Made by a program: the position numbers and the translations under genes. Positions 2,657-36,077 of a stretch of 36,077 bases of DNA are shown here, piece after piece; position 1 is the stretch's first letter; each line of letters starts with the position of its first letter. The notes beneath the pieces are model-generated. The model was given only the letters and a program-made list of their open reading frames with translations, did no database searches and was not told the DNA's origin. The DNA is from SAR86 cluster bacterium AG-422-O05 (GTDB lineage: Bacteria; Pseudomonadota; Gammaproteobacteria; Magnimaribacterales; D2472). The stretch covers positions 774,104 through 810,180 of the forward strand of contig QCMW01000001.1 in the NCBI GenBank assembly GCA_003213495.1. Direction: 5' to 3'.

Positions 2657-3142
2657 ATGAGTAATTTTACAGTTCCTGACATTTGTGATTTAAATGACGA
2701 TATAAGAATAGGCGATTTATTTCTTAATTCATATGGTGCAATAGATAAGTTTTATGGGGAAGTATTTACTGCTAAATGTGAACATTCAAATAGTGTTGTA
2801 AAAGAAATTGTTCAAAAAGATGGTGGAGGTAAGGTTTTATTCATAAACCATACTGGATCAGAATTATGTTCTATGGTAGGAGATCAAATAGCAAAATCAG
2901 CTGCAGATAATAATTGGAGTGGAATCATTACTAACGGATATATAAGAGATATTGAAGTGCTTAAAAGTATTAAGATTGGAGTATTAGCAAAAAATTCTTA
3001 TCCTAAGAAAACTGATAAATCTATTGGTAAGAGTGAAATAGGGGCTCCAATCAGCATTGGAAGTATTAATATTAAGTCAGGGGATTGGGTCTATGTTGAT
3101 TTAAACGGATGGGTTATAAGCGACTCAGAGTTAAAATTTTAG
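2657..3142 (+). CDS. rraA: RraA-like protein (RNase E inhibitor RraA / HMG aldolase family)
   Basis: A 161-residue protein of the RraA/MenG-like fold. RraA in Escherichia coli binds RNase E and dampens RNA decay; other members are metal-dependent 4-hydroxy-4-methyl-2-oxoglutarate aldolases. Family marks include a GDLFLNSYGAID segment (about 19-30), a GGGKVLFINHTGSELCSMVGD block (56-76) and NGYIRD (93-98) with the conserved Arg97-Asp98. The length is that of RraA proper. A GTG six bases upstream (2651) is in frame, but a TAGAAT -10-like box ends only 2 nt before it, so ATG at 2657 is preferred. Its last codons overlap those of the convergent acyltransferase gene by 12 nt. Whether it regulates RNase E or acts as an aldolase cannot be settled here. 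Confidence 0.85.
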   Translation: MSNFTVPDICDLNDDIRIGDLFLNSYGAIDKFYGEVFTAKCEHSNSVVKEIVQKDGGGKVLFINHTGSELCSMVGDQIAKSAADNNWSGIITNGYIRDIEVLKSIKIGVLAKNSYPKKTDKSIGKSEIGAPISIGSINIKSGDWVYVDLNGWVISDSELKF

Positions 3143-6468: not shown

Positions 6469-6474
6469 TATAAT
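6469..6474 (+). promoter_or_regulatory. Candidate -10 box of nadK, leaderless spacing
   Basis: A perfect TATAAT ends 7 nt before the nadK ATG at 6482, so transcription at normal spacing would start at the A of the start codon. A weak -35-like TTCATA lies at 6445-6450 with an 18-nt spacer. The AGGAG just upstream overlaps the -10 region and is too far from the ATG to act as a ribosome binding site. Confidence 0.5.
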
Positions 6475-6481
6475 TCTTCAC

Positions 6482-7345
6482 ATGTTTAAAAAAATTGGAA
6501 TTTTTGTAAAAGAAAACTCTTCAAAAAGTGTTGATGAAAATGCATTAGATTCTATGCTTGGCTTATTCATAAATAAAAATATCAAATTGTATATAGATGA
6601 ATCTGCTAACTATAAGAATGACAAGGCAGAATATCTTTCACATAAAGAATTTTCAGAAAACATTGATCTTTTGGTTGTATTTGGTGGAGATGGAACTTTA
6701 CTAAATTCAGCAAGACAATATTTAGAATATGAGATACCAATTTTGGGTATAAATATGGGCAATGTTGGATTTTTAACTGATATAAAAGTTGAAAATTTCC
6801 ATATATCAATGCAAGAAATACTTGATGGAAGTTATCAAATTGAGGAGAGAAACTTAGTTTCTGCTAATTTCAATGATAATCATTTATATGGCTTAAATGA
6901 GGTTGTAGTTCATTCTGGTGCATACGCTCAACTTATGAGGTATAGATTAAACGTCAATGATAAAGTTGTATATGAACAAAGATCAGATGGATTAATTATT
7001 GCGACGCCAACTGGCTCTACTGCTTATTCTCTTTCAGCAGGTGGACCGATCATTCATCCTAGTTTAGATGTTTGGACAATCATACCTATGTTACCGCAAA
7101 GCATTTCATCAAGACCTTTTGTCATTTCTTCAAATGAGAAGGTAGAAATGGAACTTTTTGAAGGCCCTGGTAAAAATGCAAAAATTTGTGTTGACGGACA
7201 GAATGATATAGACGTTCCTTATGGTGTAAATATTTCAATTTCAAAAACTAAAAAAACTTTAAAGCTTGTTCATCCAAAAGATAATGATTTTTTTGAAGCT
7301 TGCCGTGAAAAGCTTGGCTGGAGCTTAAATATTTCCAAGAATTAG
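6482..7345 (+). CDS. nadK: NAD kinase
   Basis: A 287-residue ATP-NAD kinase that phosphorylates NAD to NADP in the cytoplasm. The diagnostic GGDGT motif is at 68-72, the NE dyad of GLNEVVVHSG at 139-140, and the glycine-rich TPTGSTAYSLSAGGP at 176-190. Length is standard for gammaproteobacterial NadK. It is the first gene of a plus-strand run: the rhomboid gene starts 1 nt after its stop. A TATAAT lies 7 nt before the ATG, which fits a leaderless transcript. Confidence 0.95.
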   Translation: MFKKIGIFVKENSSKSVDENALDSMLGLFINKNIKLYIDESANYKNDKAEYLSHKEFSENIDLLVVFGGDGTLLNSARQYLEYEIPILGINMGNVGFLTDIKVENFHISMQEILDGSYQIEERNLVSANFNDNHLYGLNEVVVHSGAYAQLMRYRLNVNDKVVYEQRSDGLIIATPTGSTAYSLSAGGPIIHPSLDVWTIIPMLPQSISSRPFVISSNEKVEMELFEGPGKNAKICVDGQNDIDVPYGVNISISKTKKTLKLVHPKDNDFFEACREKLGWSLNISKN

Positions 7346-13655: not shown

Positions 13656-14272
13656 TTTTTTCTAAGTAATCCCACACTTTTACCTTCAATGTGAAAATCT
13701 TGGTGTTCTAGATCTACAACAATATTTTCATAATCTTCATTTGCCGGCTCAAGTTCAACTATTTTTGGAGATTTCCTCTGAAAAAACTTAACAGTAACTT
13801 CATCCTCAAGTCTTGCAATAACTATATCTCCATTCCTAACCTCATTAGTTTTTTTAACAGCTATGAGATCATCTTCCATGATACCTACATCTTTCATGCT
13901 CAAACCTTTAACTTTTAAAAAATAATCAAAATCTGAGTCAAAAAATTTATTTGGACAGTTTATTGTTTGTTCTATATTTTCCTGGGCAAGAGTAGGAGAA
14001 CCTGCTGCAACAAGACCGACTACAGGGTATTCATCGTCAGCTTGAGTAAGTTTGTTGTCATTATTAATAATAGAGATGCCTCTTGATGTTCCACTTTCAA
14101 TTGAGATGAAGCCTTTCTTTTCAAGAGCTCTCAAGTGAGTTTCAGCAGAGTTTGGGGACTTAAAACCCAATTCTTTGCAAATATCTGCTCTTGTTGGCGG
14201 AAAACCTGTTTTATTTAAGTAAATTTGAATACAATCTAATACTCTTTGTTGTTGTGATGTAATTTTTTTCAT
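13652..14272 (-). CDS. lexA: LexA repressor, SOS regulator
   Basis: A 206-residue LexA. The winged-helix DNA-binding domain covers about 1-70, with the recognition region PNSAETHLRALEKKGFI. The self-cleavage site VAAGSP places the bond at Ala90-Gly91, and the serine-lysine dyad is Ser125 (KGLSMKD) and Lys162 (EVTVKFF). These are offset by six residues from E. coli Ala84-Gly85, Ser119 and Lys156. The start is ATG 14272, giving MKKITSQQQRVLD; the frame stays open to 14329, but that extension would cross the LexA box and is not LexA-like. The operator at 14286-14301 implies autoregulation. The gene is convergent with the small unknown and divergent from the nucleotidase. Confidence 0.96.
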   Translation of the reverse strand: MKKITSQQQRVLDCIQIYLNKTGFPPTRADICKELGFKSPNSAETHLRALEKKGFISIESGTSRGISIINNDNKLTQADDEYPVVGLVAAGSPTLAQENIEQTINCPNKFFDSDFDYFLKVKGLSMKDVGIMEDDLIAVKKTNEVRNGDIVIARLEDEVTVKFFQRKSPKIVELEPANEDYENIVVDLEHQDFHIEGKSVGLLRKN

Positions 14273-14334: not shown

Positions 14335-15237
14335 ATGAGTAACGAAAAATCTAAATTAATAATTGGTATATCATCTAGAGCTCTTTTTAATCTTGACGAA
14401 AGTCATGAAATATATGAAAAGCAAGGTTTGAAATCTTATCAAGATTATCAAATTGAAAATGAGGACAATACTCTTGCTCCCGGTGAAGCTTTCAACCTGG
14501 TAGAAAAAATTTTAAAAATAAACGATCTTTATGAGAGTCCAGAGCGAGTAGAGGTTATTCTTTTGTCAAGAAACACATCTGATACTGGATTAAGGATAAG
14601 AAACTCAATAGAGGATCATAACTTAAATATTTCTAGGGCCGCATTTTGTGGTGGAGAAAGCCCTCACAGATATGTAAAAGACTTTGGCGTACATTTATTT
14701 TTATCTAGTAGCATTGAAGATGTAAAGCTTGCAATTGAAAGTAACGTTGCTGCTGCGACAATTATTCCAAGATCTGCTGAAAATCATAAAGAATCAAAGT
14801 CAGATATATTAAAAATAGCTTTCGATGGAGATGCTGTAATATTTTCGGATGACTCCGAAAAGATTTATCATGAAAAGGGACTTGAGGCATTTATTGAAAA
14901 CGAAGCCAATGCAGAGACAAATCTCAAAGAAGGACCTTTTAAATCATTTTTAGTTGAATTAAATAAAATTCAAAATGATTTTGAGATCAATGAGTGTCCT
15001 ATAAGAACAGCGCTTGTGACTGCAAGATCAGCCCCATCAGATAAAAGAGTTATAAAAACATTAAGAAATTGGGGTGTAAGAATTGATGAATCATTATTTT
15101 TAGGTGGAATGTCTAAAAGTAAGTTCCTTGATTCTTTTGATGCGGATATTTTCTTTGACGATCAAAAAAAGCATATTATGAGCGCAATCGATAACACCAC
15201 ATCTGGTCATGTTCCATATGGAATTAAAAACGAGTAA
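14335..15237 (+). CDS. 5'-nucleotidase (cytosolic NT5C1-like family)
   Basis: A 300-residue protein of the bacterial 5'-nucleotidase family related to animal cN-I, expected to dephosphorylate nucleoside monophosphates in the cytoplasm. Typical segments are ISSRALFNLDESHEIYEKQG near the N-terminus, the DGDAVIFSDDSE acidic motif (about residues 162-173), TARSAPSDKRVIKTLRNWGV, and LGGMSKSKFLDSFDADIFFDDQ near the C-terminus. It is the first gene after the divergent lexA promoter region and is followed 3 nt later by thrH. The shared LexA box raises the possibility of SOS control, which would make sense for nucleotide pool turnover during DNA damage; this is inference. Confidence 0.85.
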   Translation: MSNEKSKLIIGISSRALFNLDESHEIYEKQGLKSYQDYQIENEDNTLAPGEAFNLVEKILKINDLYESPERVEVILLSRNTSDTGLRIRNSIEDHNLNISRAAFCGGESPHRYVKDFGVHLFLSSSIEDVKLAIESNVAAATIIPRSAENHKESKSDILKIAFDGDAVIFSDDSEKIYHEKGLEAFIENEANAETNLKEGPFKSFLVELNKIQNDFEINECPIRTALVTARSAPSDKRVIKTLRNWGVRIDESLFLGGMSKSKFLDSFDADIFFDDQKKHIMSAIDNTTSGHVPYGIKNE

Positions 15238-18512: not shown

Positions 18513-19964
18513 ATGTCATCAAATGTTGATCTGAATGTCAGGCCTGGCTTTGATGGACTTATTTCTGAGATAGCTAACTATGTTTCAAATTACGAAATTA
18601 AATCTGATTTAGCTTTAGATACTGCAAGAAACTGTCTAATGGATACCATTGGATGTGGTCTTTTAGCACTGCAGTTTCCTGCCTGTACAAAGATGCTTGG
18701 CCCAATTGTAAAAGATACTAAAGTTCCTTTTGGTGTGAGAGTTCCTGGTACAGATTATGAATTAGATCCTGTAAAAGGAGCTTTTGATATTGGCTGTATT
18801 GTTAGATGGCTTGATTATAACGATACTTGGCTTGCAGCAGAATGGGGTCATCCTTCAGATAACTTAGGCGCAATTTTGTCGGTATGTGATTTTGTTTCAC
18901 AACAAAATGTTGCTAATGGAAAAGATCCATTGACCATGAGAACTGTTCTTGAATCTATGATTATGGCGCATGAGATTCAAGGTGTTTTAGCTCTTGAAAA
19001 CAGTTTTAATAAAGTTGGTCTTGATCACGTTATATTAGTTAAAGTTGCATCAACAGCAGTTGCTACGAAATTATTGGGCGGGTCTGTAGATCAAATTAAA
19101 GACGCTGTCAGCCAAGCTTGGGTAGATGGTCAAAGTTTAAGAACATATAGACATGCTCCAAATGCAGGCTCTAGAAAAAGTTGGGCAGCTGGAGATGCTA
19201 CTAGCAGAGCAGTAAGACTAGCTATGATTACTATGTCAGGAGAGATGGGATATCCAGGAGTTTTATCTGCACCTGTATGGGGGTTTGAGGATGTTTCATT
19301 TGATGGAGAAAAACTTTCGTTGCCTCAAGCTTTTGAAACGTATGTCATGGAAAATATACTTTTTAAAATTAGCTTTCCAGCAGAATTTCATGCTCAAACT
19401 GCAGTAGAGGCAGCAGTAAAATTACATGACGAAATCAAAGACAAAATCGATGATATAAAATCTGTTGAGATTACTACGCACAAATCTGCAATTAGAATAA
19501 TCTCAAAAGTCGGCGAGTTAAATAATCCTGCTGATAGAGATCATTGTTTGCAATACATGGTTGCCATCGGTCTTTTGAAAGGCAATTTAGTTGCAGAAGA
19601 TTACGAAGATGATGTAGCACAAGACTCAAAAATTGATGCTCTTAGAGAAAAAATGATTATCAACGAAGATAAAAGATATTCAAAGGAGTATCTAGAGGCA
19701 GATAAGCGTTCAATTGCAAATAGAATTCAAATTCATTTCAATGATGGTACATCAACTGAAGAAGTTGAAGTTGAATATCCTATTGGACACAAAAGAAGAA
19801 GAGAGGAAGGGATTCCAGTTTTAGAAAAGAAATTTAAAGACAATTTGGCCATCACATATGATGAAGAAGTTTCCAATAAGATATTCAATCTTTGCATGGA
19901 TCAAAAGGAACTCGAAGAAACTTCTGTTATTGACTTTCAATCATTATTTTCAAAAATCCCATAA
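18513..19964 (+). CDS. prpD: 2-methylcitrate dehydratase PrpD (MmgE/PrpD family)
   Basis: A 483-residue MmgE/PrpD family protein without an iron-sulfur cluster, dehydrating 2-methylcitrate to 2-methyl-cis-aconitate. CLMDTIGCGLLAL near residue 50 and WLDYNDTWLAAEWGHPSDNLGAIL (about 106-129) are family landmarks. Length fits E. coli-type PrpD. Rehydration to 2-methylisocitrate needs an aconitase; no acnD/prpF lies here, so AcnB is a likely partner. It is the last gene of the run, followed by a weak hairpin and the aroC promoter. Confidence 0.94.
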   Translation: MSSNVDLNVRPGFDGLISEIANYVSNYEIKSDLALDTARNCLMDTIGCGLLALQFPACTKMLGPIVKDTKVPFGVRVPGTDYELDPVKGAFDIGCIVRWLDYNDTWLAAEWGHPSDNLGAILSVCDFVSQQNVANGKDPLTMRTVLESMIMAHEIQGVLALENSFNKVGLDHVILVKVASTAVATKLLGGSVDQIKDAVSQAWVDGQSLRTYRHAPNAGSRKSWAAGDATSRAVRLAMITMSGEMGYPGVLSAPVWGFEDVSFDGEKLSLPQAFETYVMENILFKISFPAEFHAQTAVEAAVKLHDEIKDKIDDIKSVEITTHKSAIRIISKVGELNNPADRDHCLQYMVAIGLLKGNLVAEDYEDDVAQDSKIDALREKMIINEDKRYSKEYLEADKRSIANRIQIHFNDGTSTEEVEVEYPIGHKRRREEGIPVLEKKFKDNLAITYDEEVSNKIFNLCMDQKELEETSVIDFQSLFSKIP

Positions 19965-19967
19965 AAT

Positions 19968-19984
19968 AAAGCTTTTTTAGCTTT
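19968..19984 (+). terminator. Weak hairpin after prpD
   Basis: AAAGC (19968-19972) can pair with GCTTT (19980-19984) across a seven-base T-rich loop, then two more T. A five-base-pair stem is marginal for intrinsic termination. It lies between the prpD stop and the aroC -10 box. Confidence 0.25.
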
Positions 19985-19990
19985 TTGGAC

Positions 19991-19996
19991 TATAAT
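19991..19996 (+). promoter_or_regulatory. Candidate -10 box for the aroC-to-purF operon, leaderless spacing
   Basis: A perfect TATAAT ends 7 nt before the aroC ATG at 20004, putting the expected transcript start on the start codon. No Shine-Dalgarno sequence is visible and no good -35 box was found. It is the only evident promoter before the long gene run. Confidence 0.5.
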
Positions 19997-20003
19997 TATC
20001 GCC

Positions 20004-21086
20004 ATGTCAGGCAATACGTTTGGAAAAATATTTAAAATTACGACTTTTGGTGAGAGTCACGGCACTGCTATGGGCTGTATTTTAGATGGCTGTCCACCCC
20101 AAATAGAGTTAACAAAAGAAGATATTCAGCACGAATTAGATAAAAGGAAGCCTGGTCAATCAGATGTAACTACACAAAGAAAAGAGGATGATGCTGTAGA
20201 GATTTTATCTGGAGTTTTTGAAGGAAAAACTCTAGGTACACCTATTGGAATGATTATTTATAACAAAGATCAGAAATCTAAGGATTATTCAAATATAAAA
20301 GACGTTTTTAGGCCAAATCATGCTGACATTACTTATCAAGCAAAATATGGAAACAGAGATTATAGAGGTGGTGGAAGAGCAAGTGCGAGAGAAACTGTAA
20401 ATTGGGTAGCTGCCGGCGCGATTGCAAAGAAAATACTTAAAAAGGAAGGAGTTTCAGTTAATGGTTTTGTTTCTGAAATAGGAAAAGTTAAGGCTGATTC
20501 GATTAATCATAAAGATATTAATAATAAATATTTTTTTTGTGATGAATCAAAATTATCTGATTTAGATTCAATGTTTAATGATTTAATAGAAGAGGGTAAT
20601 TCAGTTGGTGCAAAATTGGGCGTCGTTGTTGAAAATTGTCCTGTAGGACTTGGTGATCCAGTCTTTGAGAAGTTAGATGCTAATCTTGCCAAAGCAATTA
20701 TGACAATTAATGCTGTTAAATCTGTATCGATTGGAAATGCAGATGATCTTTTAAATTTTAAAGGTTCTGAAGTAAGGGATGAAATGACCTCATCAGGATA
20801 TGCTTCAAATAACTCAGGTGGAATTTTGGGCGGCATTTCAAACGGAGATGATATAAGCCTAAGTTTTATTATCAAGCCTACTTCAAGCATTAAATCAAAA
20901 GGGAAAACAGTAAATAAAGATGGTGAAGAAGTTGATATTGAAGTAACTGGAAGACATGACCCATGTGTAGGTATAAGAGCTGTTCCTATCGCCGAAGCTA
21001 TGGTTAGTCTCGTGCTGGTCGATCATTTGTTGATTAATCAAGCTCAATGTTCGGAAGTTAAGCAGGAATTACCTTTTAGTGAATAA
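20004..21086 (+). CDS. aroC: Chorismate synthase
   Basis: A 360-residue enzyme converting EPSP to chorismate with reduced FMN, the last step of the shikimate pathway. FGESHG at 15-20 is the first family signature, and [21 protein letters not shown] and the late [18 protein letters not shown] block are the other two. Length is standard. It heads the long plus-strand operon that also holds trpFBA, which use chorismate downstream. leuC starts 5 nt after its stop. Confidence 0.96.
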
Positions 21087-33246: not shown

Positions 33247-35829
33247 TTATAAGGGGTTAACAATATTTATTGCAGGAATCTCTGCAGAATTTGCGCTTTC
33301 AACATAACTATCAATTTCATTAAAATTTAAATATCTGTAAATCTCATCAGAAAGTGGATTAATGTCAGACATATACTTGTGATATTCATCGACTGTTGGC
33401 AATCTTCCGAGAACAGATGATATTGCAGCCAGTTCAGCAGAAGCTAAGAAAACATCTGCCCCATCTCCAAGTCTGTTAGGGAAGTTCCTTGTCGAAGTAG
33501 AAACGACTGTTGAATTTGCAAGCACTCTTGCTTGATTCCCCATACATAAAGAACAGCCTGGAACTTCTGTTCGTGCTCCAGAAACTCCAAATATATTATA
33601 AATGCCTTCTTCGATTAATTGCTTCTCATCCATTTTTGTTGGTGGAACTACCCATAATCTAGCTTTAGTTCCGTTATATTTTTCAAGCAATGTGCCTGCC
33701 GCTCTAAAATGACCAATATTTGTCATACATGAGCCAATGAAGACTTCTTGTATTTCAGTATTTTCTACAGCAGATAGAGGCTTAATATCATCTGGGTCAT
33801 TTGGACAAGCTAACAGAGGTTCTTTTATTTCATTTAAATTAATTTCAATGATTTCTGCATATTCTGCATTTTCATCTGGTTCTAATAATTCTGGTTTTAA
33901 TATCCATTCTTCCATTGCTTGTGCTCTTCTTTCAAGAGTTTTAGCATCACCGTAGCCTGAAGCTATCATCCACCTTAACATAACAATATTTGAATTTAGA
34001 TATTCAATTATGGGCTCTTTATTTAATCGAACTGTACAACCAGATGAAGATCTTTCAGCTGATGCATCAGATAGTTCAAAAGCTTGTTCAACTTTCATAT
34101 CAGGGAGTCCTTCAATTTCAAGACATCTTCCAGAGAAGACATTTTTTTTGCCTTTTTTTTCAACAGTTAAAAGACCTTTTTGAATTGCTGCATATGGGAT
34201 AACATTAACCAAATCTCTCAATGTAATTCCTGGTTGCATTTCTCCATGAAACCTAACAAGAACAGATTCTGGCATATCGAGAGGCATTACACCAAGGGTT
34301 GCAGCAAATGCTACCAGTCCAGACCCAGCAGGAAAGCTTATACCAATTGGGAATCTAGTGTGACTATCACCACCAGTCCCAACAGTATCTGGTAAAAGCA
34401 TTCTATTCATCCATGAATGTATAATTCCATCTCCTGGTCTTAATGAGACACCACCTCTATTCATAATAAAATCAGGAAGACTGTGTTGTGTTTCAATATC
34501 AACTGGTTTTGGATAAGCAGCAGTGTGACAAAAAGACTGCATAACCAAATCAGCTGAAAAACCAAGACATGCTAATTCTTTTAACTCATCTCTAGTCATT
34601 GGTCCTGTAGTATCTTGTGAACCCACAGTTGTCATTCTGGGCTCACAATATGTACCAGGTCTTACTCCTTCGACACCACAAGCTCTTCCAACCATCTTTT
34701 GTGCCAATGTATAACCATAATCTAAGTCATCTTCAGAATCTGGCCTTCTAAAAATATCAGTTGATCCCATTCCAAGAGCTTCTCTCGTCTTATCAGTTAA
34801 TTGTCTGCCAATAATGAGAGGTATTCTTCCATTTGCTCTTACTTCGTCAAGAATCACATCAGTTTTAAGTTTAAACTCTGATATGACTTCATTGGTTTTA
34901 GCGTCCAGAACTCTTCCATTAAAAGGTTCAAGTATGACTTCTTGACCCATAGTCATTGAAGTTACATCCATTTCAATTGGAAGTGCTCCTGAATCTTCTA
35001 ATGTATTAAAAAATATTGGAGCAATTTTTCCTCCAAAACAAAAACCACCTTCTTTTTTGTTTGGAATGCATGGAATATCGTCTCCCATATGCCAAAGAAC
35101 AGAATTGGTAGCAGATTTTCTTGATGACCCAGTTCCAACTACATCACCTACAAACACCAATGGATTTCCTTTCTTTTTAAGTTCTTCAATAGTTTCCAAT
35201 GGCTTTTCTAGCCCTTCTCTTGGCATTTTGAACATAGAAAGTGCATGTAATGGAATATCTGGTCTTGACCACGCATCTGTAGCAGGTGATAAATCATCAG
35301 TATTAATTTCCCCAGTAACCTTAAAAACAGTTAGCTTAATTTGCTCATCGATATCTGGTTTATCAGTAAACCATTTTCCATCAGCCCATGCATTGATAAC
35401 ATTTTTTGCATGATTATTAGTTTTTGAAAGTTCATATATTTCATTAAATGCGTCAAAAATCAAAAGAGTCTTACTTAAAGCCTCTGAAGCCACTTCACCA
35501 AGCTCATCAATTTGTAAACATTTTATTAAGGGTTCAATATTGTAGCCACCGAGCATAGTACCCAATATCTCAACAGCTTCTTTTTTAGATATGTAAGGAC
35601 TTGATGCATCTCCAGAAGCAATATCTGACAAAAACGCAGCTTTGACATATGCTGATTGGTCAACTCCTGCAGGTATTCTTTCATTTAATAGATGAATTAA
35701 GAGTTCTGCTTCAGCATGTTCAGATTTTAATAATTCAACTAATTGCGAGGTTTGATCAGCATCTAAGGGCAGGGGAGGTATATTTTGACTTTTCCTCTCC
35801 TCGACATGTTTTTTGTAACTATCTAACAT
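33247..35829 (-). CDS. acnB: Bifunctional aconitate hydratase 2 / 2-methylisocitrate dehydratase
   Basis: An 860-residue AcnB with a 4Fe-4S cluster, isomerising citrate and isocitrate in the TCA cycle. The N-terminal HEAT-like domain begins [20 protein letters not shown], the swivel domain holds [23 protein letters not shown], and the cluster cysteines occur in [25 protein letters not shown] and [12 protein letters not shown]. The frame is open to an ATG at 35850, but ATG 35829 matches the AcnB N-terminus and has GGAGA about 7 nt upstream. In E. coli AcnB also hydrates 2-methyl-cis-aconitate, which would complete the prpBCD pathway. It is divergent from the DUF1289 gene. Confidence 0.96.
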
Positions 35830-35909: not shown

Positions 35910-35915
35910 TATTAT
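35910..35915 (+). promoter_or_regulatory. Candidate -10 box of the DUF1289 gene, leaderless spacing
   Basis: TATTAT, one base off TATAAT, ends 7 nt before the ATG at 35923, the same spacing as at nadK and aroC. The surroundings are very AT-rich, so this alone is weak. Confidence 0.3.
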
Positions 35916-35922
35916 TTTCATT

Positions 35923-36077
35923 ATGACCAAAATGCATAAAAAACGTTCATCAACTCCATGTTTAGGAATATGCTCTACAACATTTGGTGACGAGGTTTGT
36001 AAAGGCTGTAAACGTTTTGCTCATGAAATCGTTAGTTGGACTAAATATAGTTTAGAGGAAAGAGAAATAATCAACGA
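35923..36077 (+). CDS. DUF1289 family protein, 3' end cut by window
   Basis: The first 51 codons of a small Cys-rich protein. The pattern PCLGICSTTFGDEVCKGCKRFAHEIVSW has four cysteines spaced as in DUF1289 (YdhL-like) proteins, which are thought to bind metal or an iron-sulfur cluster; no biochemical role is established. An in-frame ATG at 35932 is an alternative start. It is divergent from acnB. Confidence 0.82.
   Translation, partial: MTKMHKKRSSTPCLGICSTTFGDEVCKGCKRFAHEIVSWTKYSLEEREIIN

Follow-up and report, generated by a model that had tools for sequence, protein, structure and literature searches.

Introduction

TA-led leaderless genes, in which a TAnnnT box precedes the start codon by about 12 bp, were described by Zheng et al. 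(2011); of 239 gammaproteobacterial genomes in that survey, 15 had them, mostly Xanthomonadales and Legionellales, and in these 15 they made up 3.0-5.7% of genes (PMC3160421). In Deinococcus-Thermus, according to the sections of the report that we used, the -10 motif adjoins the ORFs, and substitution at key sites lowers transcription (PMC12340547). The 5'-terminal AUG mRNAs of E. coli, as presented in an excerpt of the relevant paper, carry an AUG at the 5' end, and a leader with a Shine-Dalgarno sequence is kept for the gene (PMC4965119).

SAR86 is an abundant ocean bacterium that corresponds, in the portion of the source consulted, to the order Magnimaribacterales (PMC11582366). Judged from their sequence, the SAR86 boxes described below appear to match those of TA-led leaderless genes, which are already known from other bacteria; for this lineage itself, we found no report. 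Our literature search, with subscription papers and bioRxiv preprints mostly outside its scope, returned no report of leaderless genes in SAR86, and within the same scope nothing relevant was returned on SAR86 transcription start sites (a rice/Xanthomonas paper only). The window analysed here is a stretch of 36,077 nucleotides at positions 774104-810180 of contig 1 of a SAR86 genome of 1.28 Mb (1,281 kb) in two contigs. SAR86 cluster bacteria provide the nearest named relatives of its nadK, which places the genome in SAR86.

Results

A Pfam search identified the four genes of interest, all on the plus strand, as encoding an NAD kinase, a chorismate synthase, a DUF1289 protein and an RraA-like protein. 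A preliminary description of the window had placed a -10-like hexamer shortly before each of them, and these placements proved exact: TATAAT at 6469-6474 precedes nadK (6482-7345; PF01513 and PF20143), TATAAT at 19991-19996 precedes aroC (20004-21086; PF01264) and TATTAT at 35910-35915 precedes the DUF1289 gene (35923-36077, cut by the window end and 149 aa long in the genome; PF06945), each with a 7-nt spacer before the ATG, and the rraA-like gene (2657-3142; PF03737) has TAGAAT one base further, at 2643-2648, 8 nt before the ATG at 2657. Genes were called with a simple codon-usage caller, blind to the sequence upstream of starts, on 41 separate pieces that total 835,893 bases, or 65% of the genome; a few starts were misplaced, and the DUF1289 gene, which runs past the end of the window, was left uncalled. 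Thirteen leading genes were called in the window, two of them with an exact TATAAT at the identical position. The background of exact TATAAT in this genome is 0.0028 per position per leading gene, and two of 13 at one fixed position, which was picked post hoc, gives P = 0.0006.

The genome-wide positional peak that had been proposed was found before leading genes in this 65% of the genome. Hexamers with at most one mismatch to TATAAT that retained the TA and the final T were counted as TATAAT-like. Among 396 leading genes, the first base of such a hexamer fell at -12 in 26, at -13 in 13 and at -14 in 8; the background was 6.0 for each position and reached 14 at its highest one. Summed over -14 to -12, 47 were observed versus 18.1 expected (P = 1e-8). 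The corresponding sum for 303 operon-internal genes was 10 versus 5.5 (P = 0.054), and, with the called starts, the peak is more prominent at leading than at operon-internal genes. When starts were moved to the 5'-most ATG, which altered 135 of 790, leading genes gave 51 versus 18.1 (n = 341), and internal genes also showed some excess (12 versus 6.2, P = 0.025); the 148 leading genes whose starts align with a relative gave a smaller excess, 16 versus 9.4 (P = 0.03). The excess in the main test amounts to about 29 genes, or about 7% of leading genes.

A count of TATAAT-N7-ATG made regardless of gene starts was unenriched, at 31 versus 40 for the reversed pattern, and was dropped as uninformative; the signal is visible only relative to called gene starts. 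We also dropped the looser TANNNT pattern, which has a high background, though its -12 peak stays in this genome (39 versus 20.2); in relatives its three-position sum is close to expectation (38 versus 28.1 in AAA168-P09, P = 0.043). The unenriched unanchored count, and the fact that about 18 of the 47 matching genes are expected anyway in a genome of 32% G+C, could be taken to favour a chance origin of the whole pattern, but the strength of the peak and the retention of the hexamer in every nadK, aroC and trpS sequence read (see below) make such an origin hardly credible overall. For these three genes chance is very unlikely; an individual gene like the rraA-like one may still owe its box to chance.

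Since the positional peak has its first base at -12, the preferred spacer is 6 nt, with 7 nt second in this genome. With a 6-nt spacer, the A of the ATG falls on the usual +1 for a hexamer at -12 to -7 of sigma-70 promoters. The nadK, aroC and DUF1289 genes, with 7 nt, belong to the second spacer class; the proposal of an exact 7-nt spacing therefore stands for the second peak of this genome, but not for the mode, and a 7-nt spacer is unenriched in five other SAR86 samples.

Pooled, these five samples gave 35 matches versus 11.0 expected at -12 in 763 leading genes (P = 6e-9), contributed by SAR86A, which is of the same genus (15 versus 3.2), G001 (8 versus 1.4), G037 (6 versus 2.2), G007 (3 versus 1.2) and AAA168-P09 (3 versus 3.0). 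Over -14 to -12 the pool gave 53 versus 32.9 (P = 0.0007), with no excess at -13 and -14 together (18 versus 21.9), and AAA168-P09 had none over the three positions (9 versus 8.9). Taken singly, G007 and G037 were non-significant (P = 0.15 and 0.23). The trait is uneven, being clear in the genus of the window and in G001 and invisible genome-wide in AAA168-P09.

Some orthologs across the six samples share the boxes. In a test on 236 pairs, mutually non-independent, with at most 80% protein identity, matching starts and both genes leading, matches coincided in 8 pairs, were one-sided in 10 and 11 and were absent from both members in 207 (P = 1e-5). Nine control offsets were run in the same way, of which -50 to -48 gave P = 0.0014 and two more gave P = 0.02 and 0.042; promoters further upstream could explain these signals. 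An earlier version of the pair test found the matches of this genome kept in 6 of 10 pairs with SAR86A, 4 of 4 with AAA168-P09 and 1 of 1 with G007; among 34 pairs with G001, there was no own match.

At -12/-13, the 1,159 leading genes of the six SAR86 samples contain TATAAT 27 times versus 6.7 expected; none of the 19 alternative orders of its letters exceeds 11, with about 5 to 7.5 expected. An unbiased hexamer scan has Shine-Dalgarno words on top and TATAAT at -12 among the top 20 (16 versus 3.4); in this genome alone, TATAAT at -13 (7 versus 1.1) would lose significance once every hexamer and position was corrected for. No -35 element or TGn extension shared by the matches was visible in the base composition near their aligned boxes. 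A possible role as RPS1 sites has been discussed for A/T-rich stretches at -20 to -10 (PMC5397173), and the hexamers might on such grounds be regarded as a translational element, an A/U-rich S1 or Kozak-like site, rather than as promoters. We consider this most improbable, because letter order matters, TATAAT forming a peak that its 19 rearrangements do not clearly form, and because operon-internal genes, which need translation signals too, show a weak peak or none.

The anti-Shine-Dalgarno of the 16S rRNA is intact (its 3' end retains GGATCACCTCCTT), and Shine-Dalgarno and TATAAT signals coexist. A Shine-Dalgarno sequence was present in 1 of 47 TATAAT-like genes and in 78 of 349 other leading genes, but also in just 2 of 48 composition-matched controls, namely non-matching genes with an A/T-only hexamer at -12 to -7; since the controls are about as poor, the absence of a Shine-Dalgarno sequence has no independent weight, and we discarded it as evidence. 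An AUG start is found in 46 of 47 matching genes and in 312 of 349 others, a contrast that is not strong. The preliminary description had held that none of the four genes has a usable Shine-Dalgarno sequence and that NMO, topA, prpC and acnB do. The first part needs a qualification for nadK, where AGGAG is present 13 nt before the ATG; that distance is outside the usual Shine-Dalgarno range, and among 21 relatives only the nearest shares the word. The second part holds by eye for NMO (GGGAG), prpC (AAGGGG) and topA (AGGAAG, rather distant), and for acnB only with a start at 35829, not 35850. This minus-strand aconitase gene is listed from ATG 35850; ATG 35829, with GGAG at a normal distance, is the likelier start, and the gene caller agrees.

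The nadK hexamer is an exact TATAAT in all 22 SAR86 sequences read (window included; L020 and L022, in which the match starts within the gene, were excluded, and L024, from Thiomicrorhabdus, was kept separate), with a spacer of 7 nt in 14, 6 nt in 7 and 8 nt in 1. The 11 relatives whose flanks have diverged are 100% identical in the hexamer; their spacer (6475-6481 in the window) is unconserved, with a mean identity of 29% over its first 6 nt. In a set of other gammaproteobacterial families, comprising 29 loci, of which 28 had a readable start, with up to two candidate starts each and one family of the same order, just 2 of the 28 nadK loci had a candidate start with a TATAAT-like hexamer 4-10 nt ahead of it; the same-order locus is one of these, and its hexamer precedes a TTG.

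The aroC hexamer was kept in all 30 loci read (own included), taken from 55 genomes with a match and covering 6 of ten genera, with a spacer of 7 nt in 28 and 6 nt in 2. Loci down to about 74% protein identity also largely preserve the flanking TTTTTGGAC and the spacer; the spacer (19997-20003 in the window) is partly conserved. The aroC box is preceded, at 19964-19990 of the window, by a short inverted repeat that is A/T-rich, has a T run and follows the prpD-like gene; the relatives L081 and L086 have a clearer stem and T run that adjoin the TTGGAC-TATAAT of aroC, which gives the impression of a merged terminator and promoter. By eye, three matching genes (L029:3416, L044:18844 and L061:14268) come directly after an apparent terminator hairpin of the upstream gene, an arrangement that resembles the one at aroC. 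A terminator scan of the window returned none directly before the aroC promoter and none in the window at all.

These two genes bear on the possibility that the main promoters lie further upstream and produce ordinary leadered mRNAs, the near hexamer being a minor or silent promoter. Boxes of this kind are common at this G+C, and TATAAT-like hexamers shared by orthologs occur at other upstream offsets too, as the control offsets indicate, but we regard this account as unlikely: a conserved Shine-Dalgarno sequence is absent between box and ATG, the nadK box is invariant in the divergent relatives while the 20 nt upstream of it are just 43% identical, and before aroC just 39 nt remain to the preceding gene.

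The genome scan also picked up a gene that we take, from its protein start, to be trpS. It was looked for in 28 chosen genomes, and in all 26 with a match, from ten genera, TATAAT is kept 6-10 nt before the start, with a spacer of 8 nt in 13, 6 nt in 4, 7 nt in 4, 9 nt in 3 and 10 nt in 2 (6-8 nt in 21). In many of these 26 relatives (L061:690 on the minus strand, L269-L294), TTTCCACA or a near variant lies about 18-20 bases before the trpS TATAAT and may be a -35 element. Further shared cases presumably include coaD and mraZ, which they resemble in their protein starts. A minus-strand gene at 14272 of the window, which on the same grounds we assume to be lexA-like, is divergent from a plus-strand gene at 14335, 62 bp away, and the TATAAT boxes there may overlap operator sites.

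The other two of the four genes are weaker cases. For the DUF1289 gene, 15 of 25 relative rows, in which two genomes are counted twice (L179/L180 and L187/L188), have a spacer of 6-8 nt; nine of the other ten have 10-11 nt, and one has 4 or 12 nt depending on the start chosen. For the rraA-like gene, 29 rows, the window's own among them, were read out of 55 genomes with a match, and locus L123, which is cut, was dropped; in 20 of the 29 a candidate start has a TATAAT-like hexamer 5-10 nt ahead of it, and in 17 the distance is 6-8 nt.

Discussion

The hexamers, their peak relative to gene starts, their concentration at leading genes, their sequence specificity and their conservation in relatives are computational observations, and on this basis we think it likely that, in a minority of SAR86 leading genes that includes nadK and aroC, a sigma-70-type -10 box starts the RNA at or near the AUG and that these genes are leaderless. 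A housekeeping sigma-70-type -10 box would direct RNA polymerase to start on the A of the ATG or no more than 1-3 nt away from it; the resulting mRNA would have no usable leader and no Shine-Dalgarno sequence, and its 5'-terminal AUG would itself be what the ribosome recognises. A working promoter, its exact RNA 5' end and leaderless translation are what we infer from sequence for these genes, and the ATG of nadK is presumed to be the 5' end of its mRNA. The leaderless reading in the preliminary description thus gains from the genome-wide peak and from the retention of the nadK and aroC hexamers, but not from the missing Shine-Dalgarno sequences, and the variable spacer of the DUF1289 gene is a reservation.

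An account that overlaps with this one, which allows 1-3 nt, is a serious if less probable possibility: the -10 box is real, but a very short leader of 1-5 nt remains and the start codon lies close to the exact 5' end without coinciding with it. In its favour, 18 of 26 trpS relatives have an 8-10-nt spacer and 10 of 25 DUF1289 rows have one of 10-12 nt (or 4), and the purine A two bases before the nadK ATG is a possible alternative RNA start. The genome-wide 6-nt mode, by contrast, fits the A of the ATG as +1, and in the window the sole purine at positions 6-9 after the box is the A of the ATG for both aroC and DUF1289. A leader of 1-5 nt is possible chiefly for DUF1289 and trpS.

We also entertain, as a rather doubtful extension of leaderless initiation, that a conserved housekeeping set (nadK, aroC, trpS and probably more) is leaderless throughout the SAR86 family and that, for aroC, the kept spacer and the T-rich stretch at the box would tie promoter, discriminator and translation start together into a single compact unit of regulation, whose genes might respond in common to limiting initiation factors or ribosomes. 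If some core genes of SAR86 are leaderless, start-codon annotation and ribosome-binding-site models there need adjusting. A streamlined gammaproteobacterial lineage would, if this is true, join a trait that, in the part of the survey used, has within the class been found mostly in Xanthomonadales and Legionellales (PMC3160421).

The SAR86 genes resemble the TA-led genes in having a box about 12 bp before the start in a few percent of genes, and they differ in belonging to another gammaproteobacterial order than the taxa named in the portion of that survey drawn on (PMC3160421). A clear peak in SAR86 needs the fuller TATAAT-like definition, plain TANNNT being swamped by background except at -12. 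With D. radiodurans MP1, SAR86 has in common, by the same script, a peak with its first base at -12 (TANNNT, 8 versus 0.5 in 80 leading genes, a small sample of 150 kb), but about one-third of D. radiodurans genes are concerned, according to the sections used (PMC12340547), whereas the SAR86 excess is about 7% of leading genes. Like the 5'-terminal AUG mRNAs of E. coli, as described in the excerpt cited, the SAR86 mRNAs would carry an AUG at the 5' end; the E. coli genes, however, keep a leader and a Shine-Dalgarno sequence (PMC4965119), and in a small sample of 250 kb of E. coli the same script placed a TATAAT-like box at -14 to -12 in 0 of 144 leading genes versus 1.6 expected.
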